A stretch of DNA of 64,000 bases from an uncultured Pelagibacteraceae bacterium (lineage in GTDB: Bacteria > Pseudomonadota > Alphaproteobacteria > Pelagibacterales > Pelagibacteraceae): assembly GCA_902595795.1 (NCBI GenBank), contig CACJRK010000004.1, positions 1-64,000 of the forward strand, read 5' to 3'. Below, one piece after another: positions 43,053 through 45,677 of this stretch. Position numbers and translations under genes: made by a program. The notes below the pieces were generated by a model that was not told where the DNA came from, ran no database searches, and saw only the letters and a program-made list of their open reading frames with translations. The stretch's first letter is position 1. Each line of letters opens with the position of its first letter.

Positions 43053-45128
43053 ATGAAAATACCACAATTAAAAAAAAAATTAGAGATAAAATCTTGCCAC
43101 AATATAGAATGGGAAGATAATTATAGCTGGATTCATCAAGATAATATATTGGAAGTTCTTAAAGATAAAAGTAGGTTAGATCCTGAGGTCAAAAAATATC
43201 TAGAAGATGAAAATGTTTATACAGAGCATCATCTAAAAGATACAAAAGATATCCAAAATAAATTGTTTGATGAGATTAAAGCAAGAATTAAATTAGATGA
43301 TGAATCTTTACATTATAAAGATCATACCTATGAGTATTGGACAAAAACTACAACAAAAGGAAATTATTCCATAAAACTTAGAAAAAAAATTGGTTCAGAA
43401 ATTATAGAAGAAATATGGAATGGGGATAAAGAAAAAGAAAAACTTAAAACTGAATATTTTGGAGTTGGAGATTTAGAGGTAAGCAATAATGATAAATACC
43501 TAGGATACTCTTTAGATCTTAAAGGTTCTGAGTATTATACAATTTATTTAAGGGATATAAAAACAAACAAAATTATTTCAAAAGAAATTACTGAAACATC
43601 AGGTGGAATAACATTTAGTTTAGATGATAAATATATTTTTTATTCTAAACTTGATGAAAATCATAGAGCAAGAAAAATATATAGGCACAAAATAGGAGAT
43701 TTTAATGGCAAAGATGAATTAATATTTGAGGAGAAAAGCGAGGCTTTTACAGTAGGAATTGGAAAAAGCTCAGATGAAAAATATTATTTTATAAATACTT
43801 CTGACCACAATACATCAGAGCAATATTACTTTAAATCAGGTGAATTAAATCCATCTCCAAAACTTATTATTAAAAGGGAAAGAGGTGTTCTATATTCTGT
43901 TAATTCATGGGATGGTAAATTTTATAATCATACAAATAAAAATGCTGAAGACTTTAAAATTGATATTTGTGACAATTTAAGAAATCAAAATTGGAAAACA
44001 TATATCCCAGCAAAAGATGAAGTTTTAATTGGTGGATTAACATTTCTTAAAAATTGGATTATTCGTGGTGAAACATCAGATGCACTAGATAAATTATTTG
44101 TCAAAAATATTTCTACAAATATAGAAGAAGAATTAATTTTTTCTGATGAATCTGTTTATGTTCCAGGAGTAAGCTTAACTCAAAAAGATAGAAATACTGA
44201 TGAAGTTCATTTAGGATACTCCTCACCTAAAACTCCTTCTAGAGTATTTAAATATAATTTAGCAACAAAATCTAAAGAACTTGTTAAAGAACAAGAGATC
44301 CCATCTGGTCATAATAAAGATGACTATATTGTTGAGAGAGTTGAGTTTAAATCTCATGACGGAAGAATGGTTCCATTAACAATTACTAGACACAAAAAAA
44401 CAAAAATTGATGGGTCTGCAAATGTTTTATTGTATGGATATGGGTCTTATGGAAATTCTATGTCCCCAAGTTTTTCTTCTACAAGATTAAGTCTTATCAA
44501 TAGAGATATAATTTGGGCCACAGCCCACATCAGAGGTGGTATGGAAAAAGGTATGAAGTGGTGGAAAGAGGGAAAATTAATAAACAAAAAAAATACTTTT
44601 GAAGATTATATTTACGCAGCAAAATATTTGATCGAAAAGAATTATACGTCAAAAGGAAATATTATTGGAATGGGTGGATCGGCTGGAGGATTATTAATGG
44701 GAGCTGTAGTCAATCAATCTCCTGAATTATTTTTAGGAATTATTATGGCTGTTCCTTTTGTAGATTCTTTAACAACAAATCTAGATCATTCTTTACCTTT
44801 AACCGTTGGAGAATTTGACGAATTTGGAAATGCAAAAGAGAATAAAGAACACTTTGATTATATTTTTTCATATGCGCCCTACAACAATATTAAAAAAATG
44901 GATTATCCACATATTTTTATTACAACAAGTTTAAGTGATAATAGAGTTTTATTTGATGAACCTGCAAAGTTTACAGCAAAACTTAGAGACTATAAAACAG
45001 ATAATAATTTGCTTCTCTTGAAAACCGAAATGAATGCTGGTCATGGTGGAAAATCAGGAAGAGATGGCGCAATAGAAGAAATTGCTATTGACTATGCATT
45101 TGCATTAAAAATTTCCAAAAAAATTTAG
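43053..45128 (+). CDS. ptrB: oligopeptidase B (S9A family)
   Basis: Oligopeptidase B is a cytoplasmic serine peptidase that cuts short peptides after basic residues. The 691-residue protein has an N-terminal beta-propeller and a C-terminal alpha/beta hydrolase domain. The catalytic Ser is in IIGMGGSAGGLLMGAVVNQSP, Asp in ITTSLSDNRVLFDEPAKF, and His in TEMNAGHGGKSGRDG. Upstream, NVLLYGYGSYGNSMSPSFS and ATAHIRGGMEKGMKWW are family hallmarks. It is a single gene, divergent from the DnaJ-domain gene and followed by the heat-shock promoter of hsp20. Confidence 0.93.
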   Translation: MKIPQLKKKLEIKSCHNIEWEDNYSWIHQDNILEVLKDKSRLDPEVKKYLEDENVYTEHHLKDTKDIQNKLFDEIKARIKLDDESLHYKDHTYEYWTKTTTKGNYSIKLRKKIGSEIIEEIWNGDKEKEKLKTEYFGVGDLEVSNNDKYLGYSLDLKGSEYYTIYLRDIKTNKIISKEITETSGGITFSLDDKYIFYSKLDENHRARKIYRHKIGDFNGKDELIFEEKSEAFTVGIGKSSDEKYYFINTSDHNTSEQYYFKSGELNPSPKLIIKRERGVLYSVNSWDGKFYNHTNKNAEDFKIDICDNLRNQNWKTYIPAKDEVLIGGLTFLKNWIIRGETSDALDKLFVKNISTNIEEELIFSDESVYVPGVSLTQKDRNTDEVHLGYSSPKTPSRVFKYNLATKSKELVKEQEIPSGHNKDDYIVERVEFKSHDGRMVPLTITRHKKTKIDGSANVLLYGYGSYGNSMSPSFSSTRLSLINRDIIWATAHIRGGMEKGMKWWKEGKLINKKNTFEDYIYAAKYLIEKNYTSKGNIIGMGGSAGGLLMGAVVNQSPELFLGIIMAVPFVDSLTTNLDHSLPLTVGEFDEFGNAKENKEHFDYIFSYAPYNNIKKMDYPHIFITTSLSDNRVLFDEPAKFTAKLRDYKTDNNLLLLKTEMNAGHGGKSGRDGAIEEIAIDYAFALKISKKI

Positions 45129-45140
45129 TACATTTTTAAT

Positions 45141-45169
45141 CTTGAAAAAAATAAATTAATTCCCATATA
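45141..45169 (+). promoter_or_regulatory. RpoH (sigma-32) promoter of the hsp20 gene
   Basis: CTTGAAA (45141-45147), a 14-base spacer, and CCCATATA (45162-45169) form a near-consensus sigma-32 promoter. It lies about 60 bases before the hsp20 start codon, leaving a 5' UTR of roughly 55 bases that contains two possible hairpins. Confidence 0.85.
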
Positions 45170-45177
45170 AATTTTGT

Positions 45178-45230
45178 AAGTCGCCTAATGGGGCTTTCAT
45201 AAATAAACTTGCTTAACAAAGGAGAATATT
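45178..45230 (+). promoter_or_regulatory. ROSE-like RNA thermometer candidate in the hsp20 5' UTR
   Basis: Two hairpins can be drawn. The first pairs AAGTC(G)CC (45178-45185) with GGGGCTT (45190-45196) around a TAAT loop, with one bulged G. The second pairs CTTGCTT (45208-45214) with AAGGAG (45219-45224) around AACA and so hides the ribosome binding site. It includes the TTGCT anti-Shine-Dalgarno sequence (UYGCU), with a G opposite G and a bulged C, that defines ROSE thermometers of small heat-shock genes. This is a hand-drawn fold. Confidence 0.6.
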
Positions 45231-45677
45231 ATGACAAGTAAGGATCTATCTATATTTAACTCACTTAGACCTTTTTCAATTGGTTTTGATGATATGTTTG
45301 ACCAATTTGAAAATATGTTGGGAAATGGAAATTTGACGATGCAGTCAAATTATCCACCATATAACATTCGAAAAACAGGTAAAGACAACTATGCAATAGA
45401 AGTAGCATTAGCTGGCTTTAGCAAAAAAGACGTTGAGGTTGAGTTCGAGGACAACTTATTAACAGTAAGAACAAAACAAGTTAATAAGTCTGAGGACAGT
45501 GATGTTAATGGAGAAATTATTCATAAAGGTATTTCTCAAAGACAATTTGCAAGATCATTCACTATTGCTGATGATGTAAAAGTTAATGGTGCTGAGCTTA
45601 AAGACGGTCTTTTAACAATATCTTGTGAAAGAATAATTCCAGAACATAAAAAAAAGAAGCTTATTGAAATTAAATAA
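45231..45677 (+). CDS. small heat-shock protein, Hsp20/IbpA type
   Basis: This is an alpha-crystallin-domain chaperone that holds unfolding proteins. The 148-residue protein begins with the N-terminal segment LRPFSIGFDDMFDQFENML, as in proteobacterial IbpA. The alpha-crystallin domain runs from PPYNIRKTGKDNYAIEVALAGFSKKDVEVEFEDNLLTVRTKQ to GAELKDGLLTISCERIIPEHKKKKLIEIK, with the GLLTI element near the end. A sigma-32 promoter and a ROSE-like leader precede it, and a strong bidirectional hairpin follows. Confidence 0.96.
   Translation: MTSKDLSIFNSLRPFSIGFDDMFDQFENMLGNGNLTMQSNYPPYNIRKTGKDNYAIEVALAGFSKKDVEVEFEDNLLTVRTKQVNKSEDSDVNGEIIHKGISQRQFARSFTIADDVKVNGAELKDGLLTISCERIIPEHKKKKLIEIK

Follow-up and report, generated by a model that had tools for sequence, protein, structure and literature searches.

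The hsp20 gene and its promoter

The window, by which we mean the whole stretch of 64,000 nucleotides that was analysed, carries hsp20, a gene for a small heat-shock protein and the sole Hsp20 copy found in this genome (1.1 Mb). The ATG lies at 45231 and an upstream open reading frame of 691 amino acids ends at 45128; promoter and leader are located in between (Table 1). The encoded protein is identical to the Hsp20 of several named Pelagibacteraceae single-cell genomes (SAR11), and 81 of 101 related genomes have an orthologue, as do 80 named contigs.

Table 1. Features of the hsp20 locus (positions in the window)
Feature	Position	Strand	Basis or detail
Sigma-32 -35 element CTTGAAA	45141..45147	+	direct read and conservation
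Sigma-32 -10 element CCCATATA	45162..45169	+	14 nt 3' of CTTGAAA
Predicted transcription start	45175..45177	+	predicted from the spacing to the -10 element
Hairpin 1	45176..45198	+	GTAAGTC-G-CC TAAT GG GGCTTTC; bulged G 45183; UAAU loop
Anti-Shine-Dalgarno strand CTTGCTT	45208..45214	+	ROSE motif UUGCU at 45209-45213
Shine-Dalgarno AAGGAG, forming the 3' side of hairpin 2	45219..45224	+	opposite 45208-45214 when paired as in ROSE
hsp20, small heat-shock protein, 148 aa, regulated gene	45231..45677	+	Pfam HSP20, 62 bits
AAGTAAG in codons 2-4, possible competitor for the anti-Shine-Dalgarno strand	45236..45242	+	complementary to CTTGCTT

An earlier reading of the sequence alone (hereafter the sequence-only reading) had described CTTGAAA-N14-CCCATATA as a near-perfect heat-shock promoter, and our own reading agrees. 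Across the genus, TTGAA is kept in 125 of 126 hsp20 upstream regions, the remaining one being cut by the contig end. In the 125 leaders, the -10 element matches CCATATA at a mean of 6.4 of 7 positions, and the spacer between the two elements has a single length in 115. Furthermore, a gene for RpoH is present elsewhere in the genome of the window. The exact pattern CTTGAA-N13-16-CCATAT occurs at three sites in this genome, and the other two are found inside long open reading frames, on the opposite strand. The hsp20 leader of about 55 nt starts about 7 nt downstream of CCCATATA, and the transcript would begin at the foot of hairpin 1.

Two hairpins in the leader and their conservation

The sequence-only reading had further proposed a short leader with two hairpins, the first of them bulged, and this can be read directly from the sequence. 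Hairpin 1 of the window genome has one U.U mismatch in its outer stem and is followed by a linker to the CTTGCTT strand. For hairpin 2, CTTGCTT had been placed over AAGGAG with G opposite G and a bulged C. The placement of the strands stands, whereas the G.G pair is one of two readings: it is permitted by the sequence, but the nearest-neighbour model favours an isomer in which a G is bulged and a C-G pair forms, and calculations of this kind are unreliable for G.G pairs. A syn G.G pair with a bulged C is an NMR feature of ROSE1.

Taken by itself, the window leader proves little, since its fold is unremarkable and its motif common. The folding energy is ordinary compared to shuffled sequences (z = -1.1), and when the RNA is folded alone with the coding start, the anti-Shine-Dalgarno strand pairs with codons 2-4 and not with the Shine-Dalgarno sequence. 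The genome contains 112 instances of TTGCT-N3-11-AGGA, eight of them followed by an ATG. We thus rejected the motif alone as evidence, as it is too frequent, and regard single-sequence folding as uninformative.

The comparison across leaders is more telling. CTTGCT is invariant and the core of hairpin 1 is present in 126 of 126 same-genus leaders. GGAG is likewise found in all of these, 5-8 nt from the ATG, and only one leader lacks an A directly before it. In the order, every leader tabulated contains U(U/C)GCU, so that the TTGCT element on which the sequence-only reading depended is indeed a conserved part of SAR11 hsp20 leaders.

Hairpin 1 shows a strong signal of compensatory change. Among 46 diverse leaders, its positions are 95.2% paired (slid registers: 23-64%), with 21 double-change cells versus 4.4 in shuffles. 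On the gene tree of 72 leaders, we counted 24 double pair-keeping substitutions, 59 single ones and 28 that break a pair, whereas shifted registers yield at most five double pair-keeping substitutions. The bulged G of hairpin 1 is the same throughout. Within the genus, there is next to no variation in hairpin 2, which thus has little covariation of its own there. Its core, U(U/C)GCU/AGGA, is constant across the order and in phages, and covariation is limited to one core pair, which changes from U-G to C-G in genus g6 and family f2, and to the closing pair next to the core. In family f1 this closing pair is C-G, in f2 it is A-U, and phages have C-G, U-G, G-C or A-U. Since MAFFT put the anti-Shine-Dalgarno and Shine-Dalgarno sequences wrongly in some leaders, two other approaches were used to tabulate hairpin 2, namely the motif and an alignment by covariance model. 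The latter, with 85 distinct leaders, has 96-98% pairing in both helices, a figure to be read with the leaning of such an alignment towards its own structure. A swap of inner and outer pairs in hairpin 2 was also considered as proof of covariation; it goes in the right direction, but with about five changes on the tree it is too rare for significance.

A covariance model built from 20 SAR11 leaders has exactly one match in each of 218 of the 297 genomes of the order, covering 7 of 11 genera. Hsp20 adjoins all 30 of the 30 model matches that were retrieved. Of 30 genomes from other genera, 19 contain both a model match and Hsp20, and the remaining 11 contain neither. Detectable Hsp20 and leader are both absent from two complete or near-complete SAR11 genomes of genus g7 (G115 and G213), from which we conclude that the whole module can be lost. 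Leaders of family f2 are longer, with two upstream hairpins followed by a UUAAUCGCUUAAGGAGGAUUAA hairpin that hides the Shine-Dalgarno sequence; their scores with the SAR11 model are weak (17-23 bits), but the matches are correctly placed. In these three-hairpin leaders (L049-L070), the two upstream hairpins also appear to have a bulged G.

A second hsp20, with 56% identity, was observed on a contig of uncertain and possibly phage origin (L048/L248, G057:C12), next to clpX-like, clpS-like and glutaredoxin-like genes. It has a sigma-70-type promoter, TTGACA-N16-TATAAT, and UUGCU stands opposite AGGA inside hairpin 1 itself.

Comparison to ROSE thermometers and possible modes of control

ROSE-like elements are defined by U(U/C)GCU against the Shine-Dalgarno sequence, by two to four hairpins and by a small heat-shock gene (PMC3669281, PMC4166951). 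The SAR11 leader lies in the 5' UTR of such a gene and has two hairpins, with strong covariation in hairpin 1 and limited covariation in hairpin 2; the 3'-proximal one contains the Shine-Dalgarno sequence with U(U/C)GCU opposite to it. By these features, the SAR11 leaders are ROSE-like. A fourU thermometer is ruled out, as the anti-Shine-Dalgarno strand is CUUGCUU, without four consecutive U opposite the Shine-Dalgarno sequence.

A default Rfam scan of the window gave no match at gathering thresholds. When the full window leader was compared to 4,227 Rfam families, in line with the ROSE-family search that the sequence-only reading had suggested, the best family was ROSE_3 (RF02523), with 23.0 bits and E = 0.0044, which is below the curated gathering cut-off of 43 bits. 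ROSE_3 recurs in 8 of 17 further leaders of the same family (18-28 bits, full length, sense strand) and is the only Rfam family that recurs across independent leaders. Both of its hairpins are in register with the SAR11 leader, including the bulged G of hairpin 1. By the Rfam rule, the SAR11 leaders are nevertheless non-members of RF02523, since none reaches 43 bits, and Rfam would not annotate them. Across the class, ROSE_3 gave just two weak matches in 289 genomes; thus, the Rfam model misses the SAR11 elements in a genome-wide search. In another alphaproteobacterium (L226, G404), a weak ROSE_3 match of 32.8 bits lies directly upstream of a clpB-like gene and may be due to chance.

The closest studied case is ibpA of Pseudomonas, which has a sigma-32 promoter and a leader of 61-62 nt with two hairpins, only the second of which melts; deletion of the conserved G strongly represses its expression (PMC3669281). 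The SAR11 leader shares with it the small heat-shock gene, the sigma-32 promoter, a stable hairpin 1, a single-stranded linker, a hairpin 2 in which U(U/C)GCU faces the Shine-Dalgarno sequence, and a free start codon. In contrast to ibpA, the SAR11 hairpin 2 is A+U-rich and predicted to be weaker, and codons 2-4 of hsp20 in the SAR11 genus contain a frozen stretch that is complementary to the anti-Shine-Dalgarno strand. Classical ROSE elements (rhizobia, ibpA of Escherichia coli) have three to four hairpins, as opposed to two in the window; the anti-Shine-Dalgarno motif and the type of target gene are the same, and f2 has three hairpins. No Rfam ROSE family other than ROSE_3 was reported for the window. 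A 'possible RNA thermometer' has been mentioned for SAR11 strain HIMB5 from a screening of intergenic regions by G+C content (Stav et al. 2019, PMC6429828). The main text of that study names neither gene nor structure, and the candidate may be the same leader; part of our finding may thus have been seen before.

As the core U(U/C)GCU/AGGA stays while the adjacent closing pair changes, we assign the SAR11 leader to the short ROSE-type elements, by analogy to Pseudomonas ibpA, with melting at the Shine-Dalgarno sequence as the presumed response. We consider it very probable that hsp20 is doubly controlled, by an RpoH promoter and by a ROSE-type thermometer in its leader, as the sequence-only reading had supposed. 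The promoter, the conserved TTGCT, the covariation and the ROSE_3 match argue for this combination, and the link of the two hairpins to hsp20 is observed directly. RpoH would transcribe hsp20 from the CTTGAAA/CCCATATA promoter. At the 5' end, hairpin 1 would be stable and conserved in structure. In hairpin 2, AGGA within the Shine-Dalgarno sequence would pair imperfectly with UUGCU (G opposite G, a bulged base). In a cool cell the ribosome site would be hidden, and upon warming hairpin 2 would open and Hsp20 would be made. That hairpin 2 melts in the relevant temperature range and thereby affects translation is the part of the scheme taken over from studied ROSE elements; by nearest-neighbour energies it is a weak helix, with the coding region as an alternative partner.

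This alternative partner raises the question whether the leader might instead be a bistable switch, in which warming moves CTTGCTT from the Shine-Dalgarno sequence (closed) to AAGUAAG of codons 2-4. Codons 2-4 read ACA-AGT-AAG (45234-45242) in nearly all of 128 distinct SAR11 hsp20 genes, with a synonymous entropy of 0-0.07 bits compared to a mean of 0.78 elsewhere, and they are thus nearly frozen although AGT (12%) and AAG (24%) are minority codons. In silico, the accessibility of the Shine-Dalgarno sequence also depends more on temperature when the coding region is included (between 5 and 37 C, the mean rises from 0.33 to 0.57) than when it is left out (0.18 to 0.25 over the same range). In many species, real coding starts outpair synonymous shuffles with the anti-Shine-Dalgarno strand; however, a good share of the tested species show little or none of this effect, and the coding partner is missing in family f2, several other genera and phages. 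Furthermore, the alternative helix encloses both the Shine-Dalgarno sequence and the AUG and could itself block ribosomes, and the G.G pair is poorly treated by the energy model. We regard a bistable switch as unlikely. Codons 2-4 may act as a competitor that sharpens the response, or they may be constrained for another reason.

The leader could also hide the Shine-Dalgarno sequence without being a thermometer, by acting as a constitutive brake, by binding a protein or by stabilising the mRNA through its 5' structure. Covariation proves structure and not a response to temperature, and, as PMC3669281 discusses, a conserved 5' hairpin can make an mRNA more stable. The U(U/C)GCU/AGGA core, the small heat-shock gene, the sigma-32 promoter and the recurrence of ROSE_3, however, fit a thermometer, which makes these non-thermometer roles quite improbable. 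Chance resemblance in an A+T-rich leader, to which the many genomic TTGCT-AGGA sites and a fold no better than that of shuffles could point, has a negligible probability, because CTTGCT is invariant in 126 of 126 leaders, hairpin 1 covaries and the model has one match per genome in 218 of 297 genomes. We know of no other leader class that fits the features of the SAR11 hsp20 leader.

SAR11 bacteria are among the commonest marine cell types and have very few regulators. A heat-shock promoter and an RNA thermometer on one gene would show what a streamlined genome still pays for, and the SAR11 leaders offer a natural set of variants for studying how ROSE hairpins may be tuned to sea temperatures.

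hsp20 leaders of marine phages

The distribution of the leader in phages is more surprising than the proposed SAR11 thermometer. Searching viral contigs with the window Hsp20 yielded 66 contigs, most of which have the same two-hairpin leader. The SAR11 model gave 56 matches over 65 viral sources, and almost all of them fall on the hsp20 leader. Strong covariation of hairpin 1 is also seen among the phage leaders (on the model's own alignment). In 373 kb of phage loci, 71 of 74 sites of the form U(U/C)GCU-AGGA-ATG are located at hsp20; these contigs are partly redundant and near-identical ones inflate such pattern counts, which is why distinct leaders were listed as well. A control with the reversed motif was set aside, as it also matches TCGCT. 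The leaders examined come from IMG/VR contigs (L249-L312) and from isolate phages (L315-L338). The two-hairpin hsp20 leader is found in the Pelagibacter phages Mosig, HTVC008M, HTVC115P and HTVC103P, in cyanophages (e.g. S-PM2, syn9, P-TIM40 and S-RSM4), in a Methylophilales phage and in a Sinorhizobium jumbo phage, and Pseudomonas phage Ettore has a variant leader motif, UUGCG. Of these isolates, HTVC008M and Mosig have HTCC1062 as their culture host, and S-PM2 and syn9 have Synechococcus.

The upstream regions of these genes differ from that of the window. A sigma-32-like promoter was found at three of the phage leaders, whereas TAAATA stands upstream of 60 of 80 compared to 6.7% of random stretches. 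TAAATA is the core of T4-type late promoters. As TAAATA mostly replaces the sigma-32 promoter, the phages would keep the translational thermometer and swap the transcriptional control. We lean towards the view that Hsp20 and a ROSE-type thermometer form a module common to SAR11 bacteria and marine T4-like phages, the phages mostly having TAAATA where SAR11 has the sigma-32 promoter. Should the phage elements be functional, chaperone synthesis in marine phages would be gated by temperature. No report of ROSE-like hsp20 leaders in phages was found in the literature searched, which covered few subscription papers.

Some phage leaders have a third design for hiding the Shine-Dalgarno sequence, UUAACUGUCUAACAAGGAGGUUAA, which is without the ROSE core and keeps the two-hairpin layout (L288, L292, L293, L295-L297 and L304-L312). 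Two other structured RNAs were observed on the viral contigs: a glutamine riboswitch shortly 3' of hsp20 (L272:1197-1247, 64 bits) and a manA RNA (L303:144-347, 57.6 bits).
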